A DNA stretch of 64,000 nucleotides from the NCBI RefSeq assembly GCF_018687715.1, contig NC_056766.1:44990933-45054932 (forward strand), read 5' to 3'. Under the pieces are notes generated by a model, which was not told the origin of the DNA, searched no databases, and worked only from the letters and a program-made list of their open reading frames with translations. The DNA is from Carya illinoinensis. Lineage: Eukaryota > Streptophyta > Magnoliopsida > Fagales > Juglandaceae. The translations under genes were made by a program, and so were the position numbers. Positions 12,959 through 40,756 of this stretch are shown here, in pieces (within the stretch, counting starts at the first letter, position 1; the number at the start of each line of letters is the position of its first letter).

Positions 12959-15900
12959 CTAGTAAGCCTTCTTCGAATTGCCCTGGCCTTCTTGGGACGC
13001 AGATCGGGAGACAGGTACTTCTTCTTCTTTTAACCTTCCCTCAGAGCATCCTTCAACTTCCGCGAAATCACCGTCAACACTTGTGCAATCAACAACCACA
13101 TTTGAATTGCTCAAGTTTTGAGAGCGCTTGTGTTGTGGATACCCGTTGAATTCCAAGTTGCAGTCTTCATCAATATCTCGGCATCTCTTACAAAGTTGGA
13201 TACTATTCGATAAATCTACTCAGCACTCCCCAACTATTAAACTCTCATTCTTTTCATGCTTATAGATTATGTGTACTCCACAACTTTTAAACATCAATCC
13301 TTCTTCATTGCTATCAAATATAAACCTCAAATTATCTCATGTTGGGTACCGTAGCCATTCCTCGATACATTCTGGAAATGAGTAATCTAGATATACATGG
13401 TCCCGATCTCCTAATAATTCAAAATTTGCTTCTACAAGCATGTTACCATTTATAGAAACACAAATACCGGAGGGGGAGTCATCTGGGTCGGATTGAAGAA
13501 CAGCACAAAAAACAATTCCTATGATTTCATCCAAATACATGGGCCCACCAATATCCAATTCACAAGAATATCTATTTGAAGGCTCCATAGTATGGCTAAA
13601 CCAATCTGGAATCTTATTCCCTGGAAATATAATACCACATGAATGGTCCTGAATATGTTCTTGTCAAACATGTATCGCATATTTTCATAAGGACAAGGCA
13701 ATCCACAAACACAAACACCTACAAAAAACATAGAGAGACATAGAGACATACCTCAACAAATGAAGGATTTGGTGCCTGACTCCCTATATTTGCAACCAAT
13801 TTATGGCAACCGGAAAAATCAATCCATCTTACTTCTGGGCATCTTTCCAAGGAGAAACACTCACTAGCATATAGCTCTTGTATCTTTGGTGGAAGATGTA
13901 AAATTTGTAGAAGTTTCTCGCAATGCCACAATCTGAGAATCCTCAATTTAACTAAGTTTTCAAAGCTCGAAGAAAGGCTGACAATAACAATTCCAGATAG
14001 ATCTAACTCTTGCAAAGGAGATGTGCAATAATATGAGAAGTCTTCAAGGTACCAATTATAAACTGGCATCGGGCTTAATTCAACACTTGATTCTGGTTCA
14101 GACCTCTTAATCGTTATGGATGTCAGGTGGACATTTAAGCCCAGTGAGGTTGCTACAGTATAAACTTATTTCTTCTTTTGTAGTATTTGTACAATCATCA
14201 AAACAAAGACTCTTTTGATATTGCCAGTGAGGAACGCTAATTGGGAAACGCATCATAGGAACTTACTGCATTTTCCTCTAGCACATAGCGAACATCTTCA
14301 TGAAAGCATAATCTACTACGTGCGCTTGGTTCTTTGCGTGATTCCTTTCGAACAATTTCTCTGCCCATATCTTGTAGCAAGTCATGCATCCACAATGTAT
14401 TGTGAATAGTAATTGTAATGAGACACTTATCTATAAGCCTTTTGATACCATTGTCCGGAGAGAAACCACAGCTATCTAATATTTTAGCGACATAATCCAG
14501 GTGTTGTCCTTTGAAAAAAAAGGCAATATCGAGGAAAATCTCCTTCTCATTATCATCCAATCCATCGTAACTTATACAAAGTACTTCTTGAATATTTTTG
14601 CTAGGAATTCTTTTATACTTATTCAATACACTTTTCCATTGATTTATACTTTGACCCCTTAGATCTGAGCCTACCACTGTTAAAGCTAGTGGAAGACCCT
14701 CAGCATATTGTATTACTTGGTTAAAGAGTTACACATAATCTTCAATAGGTTTGTCTTCCTTAAAAGCATACCAACTAAAAAGCTCGAGAGCTTCATTATG
14801 GTCCAATCTCTTTACTTCATATTTTGAATCAACCTTATGGTTATTTAATAAATTCTGATCTCTTGTAGTTACGATGATTCTACTTCCTAAACCAAACCAG
14901 TCACGACCTCCAGCTAATGTTTCTAACTAGACTAACTCATCCACGTCATCAAGAATTAAGAGAACTCTTCTAGAACAAATCCCGCGCTTTAACTCATAAA
15001 CTCCTCTATCAACATTACCAACAACAAAACATTTAGAGGCTTTTAGAATCTCATTAAGAAGTGTATTCTGCAATTGGACCAGACCACCCACATGGTTTGA
15101 AGTTTCTCTAACATTTTTCAAGAAACAATGAACATCAAATTGTGAAAAAATTGAGTTATAGATCTTTTTGGCAATAGTTGTCTTACCAATTCCTCCAACT
15201 CCAAATATTCCCACCATGCGTATGACATTCATCCCGATACATAAAAGCAAATCAATTTCTTGCACACGAGACTCCATCCCAACTAGATATTTTGCAACGT
15301 TTAGATATGAATAATTTACTATTCTAGAGATCTCTTGAACGATTTCTTCAATGAATTTCGATTCATTCCTGCATAGAAATAAATTAATGAGCTGGACTCT
15401 TCACATGAAAAACAAGCAACATAATCTAATTAGTTTGTCTTCTCACGACCAAAAGTAGAATAAAAATTAAGTGGTATAGGTTATAGGGTATAGAACCCCC
15501 CCTCCCCAAATTGGAATCCGCAAAAGCATTGACCACAAGTAATGCTCTCTTTATTGTTAGATTCATATCTTTTACACATGATTGCATTTACCTGCATTCT
15601 TAGATTTGTTTCAATTTTCAAGAGTATTGTTTTTTTTTTATTAGAAATAATATTTACAACCGTGAAGTGTGCAAGCGCTGTACAATCTCTTTGAAAAAAG
15701 TGAGTAAATATGAAACTTACATAAAAAATATTAATTTTTTAATAGTAAACCCTACTGTTTTTTCAAAAAGATTTTGCGATGCTTACGCATTATATAGTTA
15801 TATTTAAGTTATATGGTGCAGAAAATAATTAATGTCAATTATTTTTCTTAAGTACTGATGTGTTATAATAATAATAATAATAATAATAACAACAAATCTC

Positions 15901-27279: not shown

Positions 27280-27525
27280 TGTAACGTCTCAACTCCCATG
27301 TACGGAAACCCGGGAATCTTCATGGCATTGGGATGATAATAACACAAGTCACGCATTCCAATGATAAGTTTCAAGTGTGTGTACAAGCAAAAAGTGTACA
27401 ACAAAAAACGCAACGGATAAATTAAATAAGTCAACTAAGTACCAAAATTTTAAATACAGACTACCAAAATAAAACTATTACCGAAAATTATACAGTTATC
27501 TGTGAAAATAAAGTAAAAAGCCAAA

Positions 27526-28866
27526 TGTTGAACCCAAAATTTCAAGTTTTGTGTAATTATATATTTACACATGGATTTTGATGATAACAAATGAATTCAA
27601 AGAATAAAGAAGTCTCAAGCTCAAGTTGTCTACACAATGGAGTCAAGCACATCAAGGAAACAAGCATGAGCAAGAAGGGAACAAGTTCACATTAAAATTA
27701 TAGAGTAATGTTGTAAATCTCTTCAAAATTCGAAATTAGGATTAATGCTCAAAATTAATATTTTATCATAAAGCATTAAAATACATTTTTCACATGTGCA
27801 TGAATATTTTTGAAAATTAAATTTGAAAATTTTGAAAGATGATTGATTGTCATCTTTTGCATGTGCATGCCTTGATTAAAGGGTTGAACTTTAAAAATAT
27901 TAAAGATGATTGATTGTCATCTTTCACATGTGCATGTTTTATTTGAATATTTTCAAAAGTGATTGATGCTTTTTTAGACTTATACAAAAAGTAAAAGATT
28001 AGGTTTGAATTTTTTGAAAATGAAAGTGTGCTCATTTTGTCATATGCCAAAAGTAAAAGATTAGGTTTGATTTTTTTTGAAAAAGTGAATGATGTTGTCT
28101 TTGACAATTGAAAAAGAAGAACCTTTTATTTGAATTCTTTGAAAAAGTGAATGATGTTGTCTTTGACAATTGAAAAAGAAAAACCTTTTATTTGAATTTT
28201 TTGAAAAAGTGAATGATGTTGTCTTTGACATGTGAATCTTTTTAAATTTGAATATGAAGTCTCATATGCCTATAAATAGATCATTTGAGAGCTTCACATT
28301 TACAACACCAAGAGCATACAACATTCATTCAAAACTTTCATTCTCTCTTCTCTAAGCATTGAGCCTTAATCCTTGTTCATTTTGAGAGATATAGTTTGCG
28401 ATGTATTGTTCTTATTTCACTCATTGAGGAGTGTTTTCTGATAACCTACCCACTATCAGATCTTGTATCAGAAAAAGGGTGTGTATAACCCTTGTGTGTG
28501 TAGAAAGTATTCTACACGGGGAATAGTTAAATCACCACGTGTAAGGTGATTGCAAGTGTAGAGGGTGTTCTACACGGATCCTTTGTAGCGGTATTGTTCA
28601 AAGGTGTAATAGGTTTCTATCTCCACCTGAAGGAGGTTGAATAGTGAATTTGGGAATCCTCAAGGGGTAGCTTGAGGCGAGGACGTAGGCAGTGGGGCCG
28701 AACCTCGTTAACATACTGAGTTTGCTTCTCTCTTACCCTTACTCTTTATATTTATTGTTATTTCATATTTTGTTTATATTTTATATTATATATTTGATTT
28801 ATAATTGTTATTTTTTTTAATACAATTCAATTCACCCCCCCTCTTGTGTTAGTCATCTGGGCAACA
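27526..28866 (+). repeat. 5' LTR of the SIRE-like element
   Basis: 1,341 bp, TGTTGAACCC to GGGCAACA. Holds a TATA box CCTATAAATAG (28269-28279). A 62-bp internal tandem repeat (about 28083-28230, 2.6 copies, containing GAATGATGTTGTCTTTGACA) is present in both LTRs. It has about 66 bp more than the 3' LTR around 27825-27900, between two copies of GATGATTGATTGTCATCTTT. Confidence 0.95.
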
Positions 28867-28868
28867 AT

Positions 28869-28880
28869 TGGTATTAGAGC
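28869..28880 (+). promoter_or_regulatory. Primer-binding site of the SIRE-like element
   Basis: TGGTATTAGAGC, two bases inside the 5' LTR end, 11 of 12 matching the initiator-Met tRNA complement. A perfect TGGTATCAGAGC lies 190 bp further on (29059-29070) within a similar AACAATTGGTAT context. Confidence 0.8.
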
Positions 28881-29115
28881 TAGTTGACCTGTACTGTTCA
28901 TACAGGCAGATCACCCATGGGAACTCTCGCTTGTGACTGTGTCACCGAGGCAAGACTCTTCGACCATGGGTGACGGTGCACCGGTAGAGACGGTGGCCGG
29001 CTAGTCTGGTAGGTACAATTGTTAGGTGACATAGGTGCGGCCTATGATCAGTAACAATTGGTATCAGAGCTAAGAGCTCTATTATAAGATTAACTATCTT
29101 TTGAGTTAAGATCTT

Positions 29116-30744
29116 ATGGCTAACATTGCAGCTTCATTTGGTGAAGGTCAATCTAGCAGTCGGCCTCCACTCTTTTGTGGAGATAATTACTCATTCTGGA
29201 AAGTTAGAATGAGAATATTTCTTCAAGCTCAAGGTAGAGAAATCTGGAAATGTATTGTAAATGGACCTTATATTCCAACAAAAGTGGTTGATGGAGTAAA
29301 GGTCAAAAAGGAAGAAGAAGAGTTTGATCGTGAAGACGATAGGCTTTATACTTTAAATTTAACTGCTATGAATTTATTATATAATACTCTTAATGGAAAT
29401 GAGTTTAATAGAATAATGAATTGCGCTACGGCAAAAGAAATTTGGGATAACTTGGAAGTAACTTATGAAGGAACTTCGCAAGTAAATGAATCAAAAATTT
29501 ATATTCTTACTCATGAATATGAAATGTTTAAGATGAATGATGATGAATCTATTTCTAGTATGCACACTCGTTTTACTAACATCATAAACAACTTGACAGC
29601 TCTTGGCAAAGTTTATTCCAAGGTGGAGATATTAAGAAAAATTTTCAACTCTTTACCAAAACGTTGGGAATCAAAAGTTACAGCGATTCTTGAAGCTAGA
29701 GACCTCAAGAAGCTCGAAGTCAATGAACTCATCGGGTCACTTATCACCCATGAGTACACATTGAAAAGAGGAGAAGAAGAAGGAAAGTCAAAGAAGAGCT
29801 TTGCACTTAAAGCTGTTCCTCATGAAAGTGAAAGTGATGAAGATGAGGAAAATGACGATAAAGATGAAGAAGTTGCGATGATAACAAGAATAATTCAGAG
29901 GTTCTTGAAGAAAAATAGAACTCCTCCGAGGAAATCTTTCAAAAAGTTTTCCAAGAAAGATTCAGGTAAAAACGACACTTTAATTTGTTATAAATGCAAT
30001 AAACCTGGTCATATCAAGCCAGATTGTCCTCTGCTAAAGAAAGATCGAAACAAGGGCAAGAAAGCAATGAAAGCTACATGGGATGATGATTCAAGTAGCT
30101 CAGATAGTGAAGCAAGCAATGAAGAATCAGCAAATCTTTGTCTTATGGCTAAAGATGACATTGAGGTAACAAATCTTGATAATATTGAAAATCCTTCATA
30201 TGAAGAATTGCAAAATGTTTTAGAAGAGATTTATGAGGAATTTGAAAAATTGAGTATCAAGTATACTGCTTTGAAAAAGAAAAATTCTTCTTTAACAAAC
30301 GAAATTGAAATTTTAAGAAAAGAAAGTATCATTTTGAAAGATGAAAATCTTGAATTGAATAAGAAGAAAACCGATTTAGAAAATATTGTTGAAAACTTTA
30401 CGAATAGAAAAAGAAATTTTGAAAAACTTCTTGGTAGTCAAAGATGTGTTTTTGACAAGGCAGGTTTGGGATATATGCCAAAACAAAAATACAAACCTTA
30501 TAAAAATTTCTTTGATAATCATTCTACCTCAAAAACTAATATTCAAAATTCTTTTCATAAAAATAATTTTGTCAAAAAAGGATATAATCATTCAAGTTTT
30601 TCATATATGTCACATACTATTTGTAATTTTTGTAATAGAAATGGTCATAATTATCATACTTGTCCTATTAGAAGAAATCATACAATGACTATTAGGGCCA
30701 TATGGGTACCTAAAAATCTTATTTCTTCTAATACTAATAAATAA
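29116..30744 (+). CDS. SIRE-like gag
   Basis: A 542-residue gag. N-terminal UBN2-type domain (PPLFCGDNYSFWKVRMRIFL near residue 20; AKEIWDNLEVTYEGTSQV near 110; FTNIINNLTALGK near 155). First CCHC knuckle CYKCNKPGHIKPDC (about 293-306). Long coiled coil about 355-440 (Leu/Ile heptads with Lys/Glu). QRCVFDKAGLGYMP follows, then a second knuckle CNFCNRNGHNYHTC near 505. It packages element RNA in virus-like particles. ATG at 29116 follows the 29059 PBS-like site by 46 bp. The frame closes with TAA at 30742-30744 and reads on to another stop at 30781. Confidence 0.95.
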   Translation: MANIAASFGEGQSSSRPPLFCGDNYSFWKVRMRIFLQAQGREIWKCIVNGPYIPTKVVDGVKVKKEEEEFDREDDRLYTLNLTAMNLLYNTLNGNEFNRIMNCATAKEIWDNLEVTYEGTSQVNESKIYILTHEYEMFKMNDDESISSMHTRFTNIINNLTALGKVYSKVEILRKIFNSLPKRWESKVTAILEARDLKKLEVNELIGSLITHEYTLKRGEEEGKSKKSFALKAVPHESESDEDEENDDKDEEVAMITRIIQRFLKKNRTPPRKSFKKFSKKDSGKNDTLICYKCNKPGHIKPDCPLLKKDRNKGKKAMKATWDDDSSSSDSEASNEESANLCLMAKDDIEVTNLDNIENPSYEELQNVLEEIYEEFEKLSIKYTALKKKNSSLTNEIEILRKESIILKDENLELNKKKTDLENIVENFTNRKRNFEKLLGSQRCVFDKAGLGYMPKQKYKPYKNFFDNHSTSKTNIQNSFHKNNFVKKGYNHSSFSYMSHTICNFCNRNGHNYHTCPIRRNHTMTIRAIWVPKNLISSNTNK

Positions 30745-30784
30745 ATGATCCAAAGAACTTGGGTACCAAGAAAAATCATTTGAA

Positions 30785-33700
30785 TTGTTTTTATTAGTAT
30801 GCATGAAGTCATCCACAAGCAAAAATAAGTGGTTTTTAGATAGTGGATGTTCAAGACACATGACGGGAGACAAGACTAAGTTCTTTGATCTTAGATCTAA
30901 AGAAGAAGGACACGTGACATTTGGAGACAACTCGAAAGGGAAGATCGTGGGAATAGGTAAAATTGGTAATGAATCTTCTCTCATAATTGAAGATGTTCTA
31001 CTTGTTGAAGGTTTAAAACATAATCTTTTGAGCATAAGTCAATTATGTGATAAAGGATTTACAGTTACTTTTAAAATGGATAAATGCATTATTTTGAATG
31101 ATCATGATTGTAATATTTGTTTTATTGCTTTTAGAAACAATAATGTTTATACAATTGATTTTGAAGAAATTACCTCACAAGATGCTATTTGTCTGTCAGC
31201 TCAAAATGAAACTAGTTGGTTATGGCATAGAAGATTAGGTCATGCCAATATGGAACTTATTTCCAAACTTTCAAAAAATGATCTTGTGAGAGGTTTACCA
31301 AAAACATATTTTCTTAAAGACAAAATTTGTGATGCATGTCAATTTGGTAAACAAACAAAAACTTCTTTTAAAACTAAGAAACATATTTCCACTACTAGAC
31401 CATTGCAACTGATACACATGGATCTTTTTGTACCAAATAGAGTTGCAAGTCTAGGTGGAAAATATTATGCATTTGTTATTGTTGATGATTTCTCTAGATA
31501 TACTTGGGTCATCTTTCTTGCTCATAAAGATGAGGCACATAATGCCTTTACCAAGTTATGCAAGAGAATTCAAAATGTAAAGGGCTATACTATTTCAAGT
31601 ATCCGAAGTGATAGGGGAAAAGAGTTTGTTAATAAAAATATTGAAACATTTTGTGATGAAAACGGTTTTGTACATAATTTTTCTGCTCCTCGAACTCCTC
31701 AACAAAATGGGGTAGTAGAGAGGAAAAATAGATCTCTTCAAGAAATGGCAAGAACAATGCTCAATGAGAATAACTTGCCTAGTTATTTTTGGGCTGAAGC
31801 GGTAAGTACTGCATGTTATGTTATAAATAGAGTTATGCTAAGGTCTAAGTTAGATAAAACCCCCTATGAGCTTTGGAATGAGAAAAAGCCCAACATTGGT
31901 TACTTTCATGTATTTGGATGCAAATGTTTTATTTTGAATGACAGGGATAATTTAGGCAAGTTTGATGCAAAATCTGATGAAGGTATCTTTCTCGGGTATT
32001 CTACTAATAGTAAAGCTTATAGAGTATTCAACAAAAAGACTTTAACTGTGCAAGAATCTATGCATGTAGTATTTAATAAATCTAATTCTCCACTCTCCAA
32101 GAAATCTATTGATGAAGAAACAGAAGGTATAAATAACACAGAAAATCCTAATCTCAACAAAGAGAAAACAATAGAGGAAGTTCAACATGGAGCCATCAGG
32201 AAAGATCATCAAAATTTAATACAAGATGCAACCAAACAGTGGAAATTTGTGAAAGATCATCCAGTGGAACAAATTTTGGGAGAACCTTCACAAGGTGTAA
32301 GTACTCGATCATCTCTTAGAAATATTTGCAATCATACTGCTTTTCTATCTCAAATTGAACCCAAAAATATTAATGACGCACTTCTTGATGAATCTTGGAT
32401 TCTAGCTATGCAAGAAGAGTTGAATCAATTTGAAAGAAATGATGTTTGGACACTTGTTCCTAGAACCAAAAATCATACTATTATTGGAACAAAATGGGTT
32501 TTTAGAAACAAGAAAGATGAGTCCGGAGTCATTACTAGAAATAAGGCTCGACTTGTAGCCCAAGGTTTTAATCAAGAAGAAGGAATCGATTATGATGAGA
32601 CATATGCACCTGTCGCAAGATTAGAAGCTATTCAAATGCTACTTGCATATGCTTGTTATAAAGATTTCAAACTTTTTCAAATGGATGTTAAAAGTGCTTT
32701 CTTAAATGGTTTTATAAATGAAGAGGTATATGTTGAGCAACCTCCAGGTTTTGAAAATCATATTTCCCCAAATCATGTTTTCAAACTCACAAAAGCACTA
32801 TATGGACTTAAACAAGCTCCTAGAGCTTGGTACGAGAGACTCAGTGGTTTGTTGATTGAAAAAGGTTTTTCAAGAGGAAAAATCGACACAACTCTTTTCA
32901 TTAAATATGAAAATGATGATATTCTTTTGATTCAGATTTATGTTGATGATATAATATTCGGTGCTACTAATGAAAATATGTGTCAAGTTTTTGCTAAGAC
33001 TATGCAGGAAGAATTTGAGATGAGCATGATGGGTGAACTTACATTCTTTCTCGGATTGCAAATTAAGCAAGCAAAAAATGGAACATTCATCAATTAATCA
33101 AAATATATTAAGGAATTACTGAAAAAGTTTGGGATGGAAAATGCTAAGGAAATTGGAACACCAATGAGCCCATCAACTAAACTTGATAAAGATGAATCCG
33201 GTAAGCCAGTTGACTCGAAGATATATCGAGGTATGATTGGTAGCTTATTATATTTAACAGCCAGTAGACCAGATATTATGTTTAGTGTGTGCTTATGTGC
33301 ACGCTTTCAATCATCTCCAAAAGAATCACATTTAATTGCAGTTAAGCGCATTCTTAGATATCTTAGTGGTACAATTAACCTAGGGTTATGGTACCCTAAG
33401 CACACATCTTTCGATCTAATCAGCTACACAGATGCAGATTATACTGGCTGTAAAATAGATCGAAAAAGCACTAGTGGAGCATGCCATTTCTTAGGTCATG
33501 CACTAGTTTCCTGGTTCAGTAAAAAACAAAATTCTGTTGCACTATCTACTGCTGAGGCAGAATATGTTGCTGCGGGTAGTTGTTGTGCTCAAGTTCTCTA
33601 CATGAAGCAACAACTTGAAGATTTTAAGCTCAAGTATAATCACATTCCAATCAAATGTGATAATACAAGTGCTATAAATCTTTCAAAGAACCCAATACAA

Positions 33701-33892
33701 CATTCTAGAACTAAGCATATTGAAATAATATATCATTTTCTTCGAGATCATATGCAGAAAGGCGATATAGTACTAGAATTCACAAACACACACGATCAGT
33801 TAGCAGATATTTTCACAAAGCCTTTACCAGAAGATAGATTATGTATGATCAGAAGAGAACTAGGTATGATGCATGCTATGAATATCTCTTAA
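30785..33892 (+). pseudogene. SIRE-like pol (PR-IN-RT-RNase H), one premature stop
   Basis: Frame is +1 relative to gag. Protease [14 protein letters not shown] (about 17); pre-integrase [10 protein letters not shown] with CDACQFGK; integrase core with HMDLF (about 211), IRSDRGKEF (about 274) and [14 protein letters not shown] with [21 protein letters not shown] and the catalytic YVDDIIFG (about 719); RNase H from 33134 with SYTDADYTGC, LSTAEAEYVA and KHIEIIYHFLRDH, ending near FTKPLPEDR. A single TAA at 33095-33097 separates RT from RNase H; the frame is otherwise continuous to TAA at 33890-33892. No ATG precedes the protease after the gag stop, so a recoding step or spliced RNA would be needed. 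Confidence 0.95.
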
Positions 33893-33940
33893 AAGATAGA
33901 CTAGAGTCAATAAAAATAAAGATAGATTTTTTAAATACTT
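33893..33940. other. Junction between pol and antisense ORF 1
   Basis: Only 48 bp separate the pol stop codon (plus strand) from the stop codon of antisense ORF 1. The two genes are convergent. Confidence 0.7.
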
Positions 33941-34378
33941 TTACATAAACTTGAGATTCTTAGCCTCATGTTTGAGACGCTCATTCTCTTCATACAATAT
34001 CATGTCATTCTTATCCATGGGAACCGGCAAGCGGAATGAAGAATCTAATAAAGATTTCAACTGTTTATTCTTCTGCCGAATGATTCCTTCCCTTGTGTGA
34101 GACTCTTGAACAATTCGTTGAAGTACAACAATTTGTTCTTTGAGCTTTTCAACTTCATGATTTTTGGCTTGTAGCCGCTGAGAAAAAGCAACAATAGAGG
34201 AAGAGTAGCGAGTCCCAAGACTCACCAAGTCATAAATAGCATCAGAATCTGACTTATTAGTCAGATTATTATTTTCTTGCTGCAACATGGCACCAATGGC
34301 AGCTGCAGAAAGGACAGGAGGTTGAGATGCAGAATGCCTCATGGATGGATCTAGAGAAATGTTAGAAGAATGAGCCAT
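33941..34378 (-). CDS. Antisense coiled-coil ORF 1 in the SIRE-like element
   Basis: A 145-residue protein read opposite to gag-pol. Not a family I recognise. The N terminus is Ser/Pro/Ala-rich and starts MAHSSN; a central part has SDAIYDLVSLGTRYSSSI; then a strong coiled coil from about residue 66 (RLQAKNHEVEKLKEQI, VLQRIVQESHTREG, RQKNKQLKSLL) and a second short one (LYEENERLKHEAKNLKFM) at the C terminus. No membrane segment or signal peptide. By eye 14 of 46 residues match ORF 2 in the region preceding and entering the coiled coil, with no gaps, and both start MA. A TATA box lies 104 bp upstream on the same strand. It could be a structural or regulatory element protein, or an acquired host fragment. 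Confidence 0.7.
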   Translation of the reverse strand: MAHSSNISLDPSMRHSASQPPVLSAAAIGAMLQQENNNLTNKSDSDAIYDLVSLGTRYSSSIVAFSQRLQAKNHEVEKLKEQIVVLQRIVQESHTREGIIRQKNKQLKSLLDSSFRLPVPMDKNDMILYEENERLKHEAKNLKFM

Positions 34379-34481
34379 TGAGAAAAGAATAAAAGGCTTA
34401 AAATGAGAATGCTGAAGGAATGCAGATGAGTTATAGAGATGAGATGAAACTTGATGCGGATTGAATGAACTTCAGGACTGA

Positions 34482-34490
34482 TTTTATAGA
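34482..34490 (-). promoter_or_regulatory. TATA box of antisense ORF 1
   Basis: TCTATAAAA on the minus strand, ending 104 bases before the ATG at 34378. The same nonamer lies upstream of ORF 2 (35159-35151). Position suits a plant core promoter. Confidence 0.5.
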
Positions 34491-34620
34491 GATAGCATAA
34501 AGAATAAGACAAACCATTTTCTCTTCAAATCTTATTTAGTCAAAAGAAATACAAGATATGCTGGACACACATTGTCAAAAGTTTTCTTACTAAGCCAGCG
34601 AGATTAACAGTAGATTGTCC

Positions 34621-35073
34621 CTATTTTTCTAGTAAACGATGAACCTCTGTTGTTATCTGCCGATGTTGACCTTGTATCTGAACCCTTTCTCGTTCCAGCT
34701 CCTCTATTCGTGGTTGCAGATCATGAGCATACCAATCTGTAAATTTTTTCAACTCTTGGTTTTCTTGCTTTAGCCTTTTATTCTCACTATCCTTATTAGC
34801 AAGCTTCTGTCGTAACTCAAATATTTGCATGTTAAGATGATCAATCTCACTCACCCTAGCCATTAACCTCCGAGACATGATGGTAACAGAGGCAGCATAT
34901 TGACTACTGAGCATTCTTGATTCTGCAATAATCTCAGAATCAGCCTAACTAGAAAAACGGTTCACTGCTCCTATCATGGTATTGACGGCCTCAGGAGAGA
35001 AGATTGATGATTGATGCGTCAAGGGTTCCTGATTCAAGTCTGGAACATTAGTGGAAGAGAATTGCTCAGCCAT
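34621..35073 (-). pseudogene. Antisense coiled-coil ORF 2 in the SIRE-like element (one stop)
   Basis: Paralogue of ORF 1: 150 codons from ATG at 35073 (MAEQFSSTNVPDLN) to the stop at 34621, with one in-frame TAG at 34947-34945 after GAVNRFSS. The remainder has SQYAASVTIMSRRL, then a long coiled coil (VSEIDHLNMQIFELRQKL, DSENKRLKQENQELKK) and IEELERERVQIQGQ to the C terminus. A 97-residue product could still start at the internal Met after the stop (34914). Function unknown. The stop implies relaxed constraint in this copy; the paralogy implies past selection or duplication as a unit. Confidence 0.65.
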
Positions 35074-35150
35074 TCTATCGTTGTGGAAAAACAGAACTCA
35101 GGTCAAGAAGCGATTATTTTTTTGACATCCGATAGATGAAAATGATCATT

Positions 35151-35159
35151 TTTTATAGA
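35151..35159 (-). promoter_or_regulatory. TATA box of antisense ORF 2
   Basis: TCTATAAAA on the minus strand, 78 bases before the ATG at 35073. Identical to the box of ORF 1, within otherwise diverged surroundings. Confidence 0.5.
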
Positions 35160-35533
35160 AACTCGGAGCCTTCAATCCCGTTTGTCAACAACATCAGGCG
35201 ATTGTTTAATCTTCAGCCGTATTAAATTCATAGAGTTAGGCCTCGAGGCTTTACAGCACTTGTCGGGTCACGGACGGCTCCGTTTTTCAACTATCTATAG
35301 TGTCTACTAACGCACCGTTTTCTTCAGTCTATTTACTTATTGCGGATCCTTTTTAATGATGCCAAAAGGGGGAGAAGTGTTAGACTAGAACATTAACACT
35401 GTTTAAATTGTTAAACTTGTTATATATGCTTGGAATTATATTTATACTTTTGCTTGAAAAACTAACGCACATTCTCAGGGGGAGCTTAAGTATTAATACA
35501 GGTTTCAGGTTCTATCAAGTATTTGTCATCATC
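35160..35533 (+). other. Non-coding 3' region of the SIRE-like element
   Basis: Between the antisense unit and the PPT. It contains two extra polypurine boxes, AAAAGGGGGAGAAG (about 35364-35377) and GGGGGAG at 35478-35484. No reading frame. Confidence 0.6.
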
Positions 35534-35546
35534 AAAAAGGGGGAGA
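35534..35546 (+). promoter_or_regulatory. Polypurine tract of the SIRE-like element
   Basis: AAAAAGGGGGAGA directly before the 3' LTR start at 35548; the plus-strand DNA primer in reverse transcription. Confidence 0.85.
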
Positions 35547-35547
35547 T

Positions 35548-36822
35548 TGTTGAACCCAAGATTTCAAGTTTTGTGTAATTATATATTTACACATGGATTT
35601 TGATGATAACAAATGAATTCAAAGAATAAAGAAGTCTCAAGCTCAAGTTGTCTACACAATGGAGTCAAGCACATCAAGGAAACAAGCATGAGCAAGAAGG
35701 GAACAAGTTCACATTAAAATTATAGAGTAATGTTGTAAATCTCTTCAAAATTCGAAATTAGGATTAATGCTCAAAATTAATATTTTATCATAAAGCATTA
35801 AAATACATTTTTCACATGTGCATGAATATTTTTTAAAATTAAATTTGAAAATATTAAAGATGATTGATTGTCATCTTTCACATGTGCATGTTTTATTTGA
35901 ATATTTTCAAAAGTGATTGATGTTTTTTTAGACTTATACAAAAAGTAAAAGATTAGGTTGGAATTTTTTGAAAATGAAAGTGTGCTCATTTTGTCATATG
36001 CCAAAAGTAAAAGATTAGATTTGATTTTTTTTTGAAAAAGTGAATGATGTTGTCTTTGACAATTGAAAAAGAAGAACCTTTTATTTGAATTCTTTGAAAA
36101 AGTGAATGATGTTGTCTTTGACAATTGAAAAAGAAGAACCTTTTATTTGAATTTTTTGAAAAAGTGAATGATGTTGTCTTTGACATGTGAATCTTTTTAA
36201 ATTTGAATATGAAGTCTCATATGCCTATAAATAGATCATTTGAGAGCTTCACATTTACAACACCAAGAGCATACAACATTCATTCAAAACTTTCATTCTT
36301 TCTTCTCTAAGCATTGAGCCTTAATCCTTGTTCATTTTGAGAGATATAGTTTGCGCTGTATTGTTCTTATTTCACTCATTGAGGAGTGTTTTCTGATAAC
36401 CTACCCACTATCAGCTCTTGTATCAGAAAAAGGGTGTTTATAACCCTTGTGTGTGTAGAAAGTATTCTACACGGGGAATAGTTAAATCACCACATGTAAG
36501 GTGATTGCAAGTGTAGAGGGTGTTCTACACGAATCCTTTGTAGCGGTATTGTTCAAAGGTGTAATAGGTTTCTATCTCCACCTGAAGGAGGTTGAATAGT
36601 GAATTTGGGAATCCTCAAGGGGTAGCTTGAGGCGAGGACGTAGGCAGTGGGGCCGAACCTCGTTAACATACTGAGTTTGCTTCTCTTTTACCCTTACTCT
36701 TTATATTTATTGTTATTTCATATTTTGTTTATATTTTATATTATATATTTGATTTATAATTGTTATTTTTTTTTAATACAACTCAATTCACCCCCCCTCT
36801 TGTGTTAGTCATCTGGGCAACA
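35548..36822 (+). repeat. 3' LTR of the SIRE-like element
   Basis: 1,275 bp. Nearly identical to the 5' LTR apart from the roughly 66-bp indel and scattered substitutions. TATA box CCTATAAATAG at about 36223-36233. Followed by the target duplication CCAAA. Confidence 0.95.
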
Positions 36823-37254
36823 CCAAATACATAGACAAAAGGGAAACAAATGCCATAATCCAAAAAGAGACCACATGTCACTCTTTCAGCGAGGCCGATC
36901 CCTCAGACTCAACGTCTTCATCAATATCAAAATCTACGATTCCATAAAATTGAACCACAAGATGTCGAATACAATGAGATTGTGAATCTCAGTAAGTAAT
37001 CACCCAAACAAACTAAGAGATAAAAATACATTAATGCATGTAACAAATATGCGTACACATGAGGAAACACGAATGTGACCCAAAACCCTCATTTTTCTCG
37101 AAAATGATTATTTTCCAACACCTGCCAAAAATCTCATTTGACCTGAAATATATTTGTCATTTTCCAAGAAAATGGCCCAAACAATGGTGTTCGTATCCAT
37201 TAAATCATAAACCGTCATTTTTCCAGAGAATGGCCTAACATATCATTTATCAAT

Positions 37255-37640
37255 CGCTATAGGCGGGAATCAAAGGTTGGACTACCACCATCTCTACTTA
37301 CCACCATCCCTACTGTGTGCACCATAAGCAGGACTACCACCATCTTTACCATGTGTACCGTAGATGAGAATCATAGGCAGGACTACCACCATCTCTGTTT
37401 ACTACCATCCCTACCACTAACACCGTAGACGGGAATCACAGGTAGAACTCTACCACCATCCCTACAGCATGCATCATAGGCGAGAATCACAGGTGGGACT
37501 ACTACCATCCCTACAGCTTGCACTCTAGGAGGGAATCATAGGTGGGACTATCACCATCCTTACTGCGTGCACAGTACGTGAGAATCGCAAGTGGGACTCT
37601 ACCACCGTTCCTGTTTACCACCATCTCTACAGTTCCTTTT
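37255..37640. repeat. Imperfect tandem repeat inside solo LTR X1
   Basis: About six diverged copies of a 60-65 bp unit built on GGACTACCACCATC, CCCTAC, a GCATGCAC-like word and GGGAATCACAGG. No reading frame crosses it. Absent from X2, which is shorter here. Confidence 0.8.
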
Positions 37641-38930: not shown

Positions 38931-40484
38931 TTTTTTTTTCTTATAAGAGAAAATGCTTCATTAATCAACTGGTAAATATTCGAGATACATCATTTAAAAC
39001 AGAAACTTTGACCACCATGGGTCCATCTTCTAGCCAAACTTTCTCATAAGCTTCCTTTATGGCTTCCTTAGCTGCTATGTGAGCAGCATGATTAGTAGAC
39101 CTGTATGCAAAGGATAACCTCCAAGTCGAATGAATCTCCAGCAACTGTTGTAGATCCTCTGTCTCTTGACCATGCCAAGAATTATCTTCATTTTTCAAAT
39201 TGATTGCATCAATGACTGCTTTGGCATCCCCTTTGAAGATAACTTGGTTCATACCCATCTCAATACACATTTCCATGGCCCTTTGCAGGACTGCTCTTTC
39301 TGCTTGGGCAGCTGAGAAAACCTGTTCTTTTGGGGCTGTTAAACACGCTTGAAGGCTCCCTTCACTATCTCTCATTATGATTCCCAACCCCATTCTGTTC
39401 AAAATCTTGTCATACGTTGCATCAAAATTTACTTTCAAAAAAGGCCACTCAGGTGGCTGCCAAGACTTATTAGAAGTTGTTGTTGTTGTCCTCCCTTCTA
39501 GTCTATTCCTACTCTGCTGATTAATCTCCCTTAGCATTGCAATATCAGCTTGAGCCATAGCTGTGATAGTTTCTGGACTCTTAAACTGGTCTTGAAAGAT
39601 GTAGACATTTCTTCTACCCCATAGATGGTAGCATAGGACTGCAACCATTTGTAGATCTTCTTTATTTAATCTAGCTGTCATCTCTTCCCATCGTTGCTGG
39701 AAATCAGAGAAAGAGCTGTTCCATTTTTTGAGCTTGCTATTATCACCTCCCCACACATCCTTTGCTGCCGGACAGGCCCAAAGGGTATGCAGTGAGGTTT
39801 CAACCTCTCTTGTACAGATTAGACAAAGGTTGCTATCCACAATTTTCCTTTTGTATAGTTTGTCTTTTGTTGGAAGGATATTAGAAAGGCTTCTCCATAT
39901 GAACATTCTAACCTTGCCCGAGACTTCTAGTTGCCAGAGTTCCTTCCATATCCCTTTGTTCCCCCCTCCTGAAGAAGATTTGCCCATACTTCTGCGTGAC
40001 AGTTTTTTATCCATGAAATAGGCACTTTTAACAGAGAAGATGCCTTTTGTAGACCCTGCCCAAATCCTTTTATCTCTTGCCCTTCTCTTGCTAATGGGAA
40101 TTGAGCATATAAGCTTTGCTTCCTCTTCATTGAAAATGGCCTTCACTAGATTTTCCTTCCAAGATCAAGTATCTACATTAATTAAGGCATCCACTTTGCA
40201 ATCTGGATCTAAAGCATTGATGTGGGTCTGAACATGAAAGGTTACTGGTCTAGGCAGCCATTTTTCCTTCTAGATTTTTATTTCTCTCCCATTTCCCACC
40301 CTCCATACTAACCCTTCCCTCACCAGACCCATACTTGACCATAGGCTTCTCCATATGTACGAGGGAGATCCTTTTAACTCTGCCTCCATCACATCACAAT
40401 GCTGAAAGTATTTCTGTTTGAAGACCCTCAAGACTAAGGACAGTGGTTCTTTTATCATTCTCCATAGTTGCTTTGCTAAGAGAA
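38931..40484 (-). mobile_element. LINE L2, 5'-truncated, inside X1
   Basis: Minus-strand LINE tail whose poly(A) appears as the T run at 38929-38939. It interrupts X1 between GAGAAACACGTTAAATT and AAGAGAACCACTAATAATAT, which are contiguous in X2 (GAGAAATCTGATAAATTT...AAGAGAATCAATATTAA). The right boundary is approximate. Confidence 0.8.
38965..40146 (-). pseudogene. LINE L2 ORF2 C-terminal part (zf-RVT, RNase H)
   Basis: A 393-residue open frame. The zinc-binding RT-associated part has KGIFSVKSAYF, LWQLEVSGKVRMFIWRSL, LCLICTREVETSLHTLWACP and a VAVLCYHLWGRRN linker. RNase H follows from LKVNFDATYDK, with SAAQAERAVLQRAMEM and VIFKGDAKAVIDAI. Recognisable ORF2 continues to about 40480 (LLAKQLWRMIKEPLSL; SPSYIWRSLWS), but a stop (near 40267) and a frame change separate it. 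RT and endonuclease are absent. Confidence 0.85.
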
Positions 40485-40665: not shown

Positions 40666-40756
40666 ACTCCCCCTCAAGATGGGTGTTATTGGAGTGTAAA
40701 TGTTAATAATACCCATCTTGAAAAGAATATTAGAGAAGAGATTGTTGCCAAGAGGC

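Follow-up and report, generated by a model that had tools for sequence, protein, structure and literature searches.

A putative family of antisense proteins, doubled in tandem, in a SIRE-type Copia retrotransposon of Carya illinoinensis

Grande, RIRE2, Retand and PvRetro13 are Gypsy elements. All four have an antisense open reading frame between pol and the 3' LTR, the arrangement called aORF-3R (PMC7264820, PMC11963269). In Grande the frame is gene23, for which a promoter of its own and a nuclear protein have been reported; in PvRetro13 it gives an SMC-type match (PMC7264820, PMC11963269). What such genes do for a retrotransposon is called unknown in PMC7264820. SIRE elements have something else in that place: 74% of them carry a sense env-like extra ORF, eORF-3'F (PMC6317226), the protein of which is reported to contain a coiled coil (PMC3414828) and upstream of which CpG islands occur in Sireviruses (PMC2829016). 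The survey behind that percentage lists 582 Copia elements with extra ORFs and has a floor of 250 codons, so genes as short as those described here would be missed. Our searches of the open-licence literature turned up no antisense gene described for a SIRE element.

The locus we describe lies in a stretch of 64,000 nucleotides from Carya illinoinensis (contig NC_056766.1), the whole of which we call the window. It resembles the aORF-3R elements in place, between pol and the 3' LTR, and in antisense direction, but it belongs to a SIRE-type Copia element and comprises two tandem paralogs of about 150 codons each. It also occupies the linker slot of the SIRE env-like ORF, yet on the opposite strand and with two small proteins predicted to be helical.

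The host is a complete, young Copia retrotransposon of about 9.3 kb (27526-36822, forward strand), with both LTRs and a target site duplication, CCAAA, at 27521..27525 and 36823..36827. Its 5' LTR (27526..28866, +) has 1341 bp, reads TGTTG...CAACA and carries a C-rich tract near its end. The 3' LTR (35548..36822, +) has 1275 bp, and the two agree at 1259 of 1273 aligned bases with three gap runs. Just inside the 5' LTR, TGGTATTAGAGC (28869..28880, +) looks like a primer binding site, presumably of the tRNA-Met type. The gag gene (29116..30744, +) encodes 542 amino acids with a Retrotran_gag_2 domain and CCHC knuckles at residues 291 and 503; residues ~360-437 give weak matches to coiled-coil types, all under the cut-off. 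The pol open frames (30785..33892, +) differ in frame from gag and hold Pol_BBD, gag_pre-integrs, rve, SH3-like and RVT_2 domains, followed by a last part with no Pfam match; in this copy the pol reading is interrupted once, by an in-frame stop at 33095-33097. The polypurine tract AGGGGGAG occurs three times on the forward strand, at 35367..35374, 35477..35484 and 35538..35545, none of them more than 185 bp from the 3' LTR, and the terminal tract starts 10 bp before the LTR and runs into AT/TG. PMC2829016 gives as the Sirevirus signature several such tracts close to the 3' LTR with AT/TG after the terminal one, and the element has it; the Copia domain order, the large CCHC gag and the lengths of LTR and element also lie within the Sirevirus range published there. 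By its tracts, domain order, gag and lengths, then, the element has the marks of the SIRE (Sirevirus) type. The original prediction, made from the letters of the window, had spoken of a SIRE-like Copia element, and the tracts, AT/TG, domain order, LTRs and duplication bear it out.

That prediction also placed two antisense ORFs in the linker and no sense env-like ORF, and this is what the linker contains. In its 1655 bp two antisense frames lie head to tail. ORF A (34378-33941, -) is open over 145 amino acids, and its end faces that of pol across 48 bp, tail to tail. ORF B (35073-34621, -) lies 242 bp upstream on the same strand and has 150 codons, interrupted by one in-frame stop at codon 43. 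An antisense ORF between pol and the 3' LTR is what marks an aORF-3R in plants, and here there are two. The sense env-like ORF, common but not obligatory in SIRE elements, is absent from the linker, where the longest sense ORF has 44 codons. Chance is an unlikely source of ORF A, since dinucleotide shuffles of the linker gave an antisense ORF of at least 145 codons in 1 of 1000 cases (3 of 1000 on either strand). G+C over the three codon positions is coding-like in both frames (0.50, 0.32 and 0.36 in A; 0.51, 0.34 and 0.37 in B). We found no second DNA copy of A or B within the window. A nested element inside the linker was considered and rejected, the linker repeats being short and imperfect with none framing the pair. 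B is broken in this copy, but P0013, a relative in the protein database, reads through all 150 codons and shares 95% identity with the 97-residue piece of B in the window.

Are A and B related? P0013 took the place of the interrupted B in the comparison. Its local alignment with P0001, which is A itself, scores 117, where shuffles average 35-45, and not one of 2000 shuffles reached the observed score in any of four controls (full, window, heptad-keeping and split), local or global. The outcome was likewise 0 of 2000 per kind of shuffle when P0003, P0009 and P0011 were set against P0013. A control stretch of Gag, residues 356-445, was matched against P0001, P0009 and P0013 by 665, 264 and 241 of 2000 shuffles and so does not rise above chance. 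The four kinds of shuffle and the Gag control rule out that the likeness stems from a coiled-coil bias common to both frames, and the paralogy originally proposed passes the comparison with shuffled coiled-coil controls that had been suggested for it. The best ungapped stretch of 46 residues has 16 identities, against 14 in the prediction; shuffles average 9.8 with a maximum of 14, and 0 of 500 reach 16. A likeness of that length holds up, but not its confinement to a segment before the coil: it covers approximately residues 41-87 and takes in the start of the long helix. At the DNA level A and B have no significant similarity beyond short words. P0013 is 22-25% identical to each of seven A-type proteins. 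This would place B outside the A group and make the duplication older than the spread of A, unless B evolved faster. Judged by their protein sequences, the A and B types are old paralogs.

The protein searches, which reach relatives sharing short exact words, gave 22 proteins including P0001. Twenty-one are of A type and one, P0013, is of B type, the single relative that the B query retrieved. Reading the sequences, we assigned nine of the A-type proteins to a full-length class (142-148 aa), five to a class with a late start and the common C-terminus, and seven to a class with the N-terminal part only. The full-length proteins share an MA start (six residues earlier in P0011), a block I-Y-x-L-V-x-L-G-T-x-Y-S-S and a C-terminal L-K-F; their residues 44-145 align without gaps, and the distant ones are 47-58% identical to A. 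P0006 is a frameshifted A-type relative. A protein annotated in Carya illinoinensis has 99% identity over 79% of ORF A. Pattern matches in viral contigs yielded no confirmed relative (0 of 20 for A, 5 for P0013 and 48 for the A profile), nor did 34 in genome contigs with the A profile. What emerges is a conserved antisense protein family, doubled in tandem in this SIRE-type linker, with relatives known as proteins alone.

Such a family could have come from outside. A host or foreign coiled-coil gene might have entered the linker in reverse and then been duplicated, its descendants traveling as passengers. PMC6317226 calls the extra ORFs of SIRE elements heterogeneous and perhaps of several sources, and three of our proteins, P0004, P0005 and P0020, bear the annotation of hypothetical protein in Carya illinoinensis; yet a host gene name stands on none of the 22 proteins retrieved, within the short-exact-word reach of the search, and none of the linker repeats frames the pair. 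We regard capture as unlikely, although it survives better than the other alternatives.

How A has changed among its relatives bears on a second alternative, in which the copies are young and the pair is a dead passenger without function, its frames open either by chance or through recent amplification. B is broken here, the relative P0012 (described below) is without B, and P0006 is frameshifted, all of which would suit a passenger. We simulated neutral change starting from the window's A frame and running to the observed identity, with runs of more than two stops excluded from the scores. The close relative P0003 again suits the passenger: its replacement score was reached by 2068 of 3493 runs, no departure from neutrality. 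The distant relatives tell otherwise. Their replacement scores were reached by 0 of 1030 runs (P0009), 10 of 1072 (P0011), 1 of 1203 (P0014), 20 of 979 (P0015) and 1 of 746 (P0016). Identities as clustered as theirs arose in 14, 0, 12, 16 and 6 runs, in the same order; an unusually long identical run is seen in P0011 alone. Over the gap-free residues 44-145, under four mutation models with 1500 runs each, the scores were reached in 0-2 runs for P0009, 4-70 for P0011, 6-61 for P0014 and 2-73 for P0016; P0015, at 224-775 of 1500, is not distinguishable from neutral. Under the most transition-biased model P0011, P0014 and P0016 stand at 4-5%. Replacements in the gap-free part are more conservative than in neutral simulation in four of five distant relatives, clearly so under three of the four models, for relatives that share history and are not independent, drawn from a database that favors open frames. 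Stop-free runs tell a similar tale, with the same preference of databases for open frames to be kept in mind: of 4000 neutral runs, 60 stayed open at the divergence of P0009, 87 at that of P0011, 107 for P0014, 89 for P0015 and 52 for P0016, against 1109 for P0003. Distant relatives that keep their length, their ends and a conservative pattern of replacement argue against a dead passenger, which we think a shade less probable still than capture. We take the pattern to mean that the A protein has been under purifying selection at the depth of the family. Conserved as a working protein would be, the relatives of A suggest a little-noticed kind of accessory gene in these plant retrotransposons.

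What sort of protein might this be? The model of A has helices at residues 25-40, 44-114 and 123-143 behind a low-confidence N-terminal tail (mean pLDDT 79, pTM 0.39). That of P0013, from an input alignment that included A-type rows, has helices at 27-39 and 45-149 (pLDDT 82, pTM 0.45). In these predictions the two types have a common helical plan, a short helix and then a long one. The prediction of long coiled coils in both frames was upheld in part. A hydrophobic period of 3.5 residues is present: the A family mean over 44-114 was reached by 9 of 5000 permutations, A alone by 64 and P0013 over 45-149 by 62, and the signal is weaker in shorter stretches. A simple count of a/d positions did not exceed shuffles. 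Foldseek found no match for the A model in the PDB; by sequence, A has one weak match there (E 0.48), and the family profile has 22, mostly coiled-coil proteins, the best at E 0.0022. No Pfam family matched the window's A or the 97-residue B piece over the cut-off. Under it, the best of the Pfam matches is B piece to ZapB (E 1.1e-5), a family, PF06005, that P0013 carries as a precomputed coiled-coil match, and the B piece also touches bZIP_1 (E 0.091). Among the 17 of the 22 family proteins that were scanned, weak matches to families of coiled-coil type turned up, HAP1_N in three members (best E 0.00037). With thresholds of E 1 for A and the B piece and E 0.01 for the 17 family proteins, no TRP28 (PF04195) match appeared, and in this the present pair differs from the Retand antisense proteins. 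We read the ZapB match of the B type as generic coiled-coil likeness. No known protein family emerges for A or B, Pfam giving weak likeness of that generic kind with ZapB the strongest.

The nonamer TCTATAAAA that had been predicted ahead of both starts is there, 104 bases before the ATG of A (34482..34490, -) and 78 before that of B (35151..35159, -), and each copy is a candidate TATA box. The nonamer is not rare, occurring four times in the window where 1.81 are expected (at least four in 14 of 100 shuffles). A TATAAA in a given 61-bp stretch has about a 4% chance here, and one in both about 0.15%, before allowing for after-the-fact choice. Upstream of B on the antisense strand lies a CpG-rich stretch (35076..35350) with the highest CpG counts in the element: the top 200-bp intervals hold 12, 11 and 10 CpGs (starts 35126, 35176 and 35076), and the next, in the gag leader, holds 8. 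CpG observed over expected is 1.33 at 35160-35350, compared with 0.31-0.49 in the LTRs, gag-pol, A, B and the gap between A and B. By analogy, this stretch may be comparable to the CpG islands before the Sirevirus env-like gene. The 200 bp upstream of A and of B show no significant DNA similarity beyond short words, and no AATAAA-type signal falls within 400 bp after A. Of the idea of a duplicated, self-promoted module, then, the paralogous frames, the two TATA-type boxes and the CpG maximum stand, while a promoter sequence common to A and B beyond the nonamer does not; the promoter part being indirect, we rate that interpretation as partly supported.

P0012 offers a glimpse of another linker. 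It matches 35194-35099, upstream of B, then 34509-34402, with the box and leader of A, and then the start of A, a span of 34262-35194 (-) from which the intervening part, ORF B included, is missing. Its back-translation allows TATA at the A box and not at the B box. This points to a further copy in which A is surrounded by the same parts of the linker, and it suggests that B can be absent. By eye, in the window's letters, there is no clean GT-AG joint at either of its two joints, and a deletion derivative would be simpler than a spliced antisense transcript. With B broken here and missing from this close relative, A and B need not act together.

The weakest alternative, to which we give the least credence of the three, is that the working product is an antisense RNA restraining the element, as in Ty1 (PMC12786077), with the ORFs as passengers: an RNA would have as much use for the TATA-type boxes and the CpG maximum, and PMC7264820 names the option for plant elements, but A is kept at the level of protein, in identity, in conservative replacement and in its gap-free core.

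We think it probable that A and B are old tandem antisense accessory genes of a SIRE-type Copia element whose linker lacks a sense env-like ORF. On our best reading the accessory pair would have an internal promoter of its own. Antisense transcripts would begin inside the linker and run toward pol, from the CpG-rich stretch and TATA-type box before B and from the TATA-type box before A as start candidates. The small proteins would form dimers by way of their long helices, either A:A or A:B, and these dimers would act on the element itself. Sirevirus Gag has a predicted coiled coil. The dimers might be partners of Gag, or else nuclear modulators, as is thought for Grande gene23. A modulator of transcription or RNA fate is quite possible, a partner of Gag or the particle a little less so, and some other activity rather doubtful. 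HBZ, the protein of HTLV-1, dimerizes by a zipper. Like A and B it is coded antisense in a retroelement, a comparison of how things might work and of nothing else, and it is a bZIP factor with a transcript start in the 3' LTR (PMC6950816, PMC3185765), whereas the candidate start of the present pair is internal. One could go further and imagine a SIRE clade, in Carya and perhaps its relatives, where a duplicated and internally promoted antisense pair replaces the env-like gene, and where coiled-coil products pair, perhaps with the coil of Gag, and control the element. This would be a Copia counterpart of the retroviral antisense regulators, independent of the TRP28 genes of Retand; we offer it tentatively.

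Antisense accessory ORFs were already known in other plant LTR elements, and a seemingly conserved tandem pair in a SIRE Copia element is the new part. If true, antisense accessory genes had more than one origin, and the short ones are overlooked by surveys that count from 250 codons upward, such as that in PMC6317226. With a pair of small proteins and a single CpG-rich promoter candidate, the locus would also make a compact case in which to probe what antisense genes do in retrotransposons.

The surroundings of the element hold some minor features. Six more AGGGGGAG octamers lie outside it, at 13471, 20051, 51153 and 61795 on the forward strand and at 40667 and 42381 on the reverse, making nine in the whole window where 0.75 are expected; the outlying ones are perhaps remains of other SIRE elements. 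Beyond the 3' LTR, tandem-like repeats of about 49 bp occupy 37298-37596. Further on, an ORF of 393 amino acids (38965-40146, -) has zf-RVT and RVT_3 domains, and we take it to be of the non-LTR retrotransposon type.
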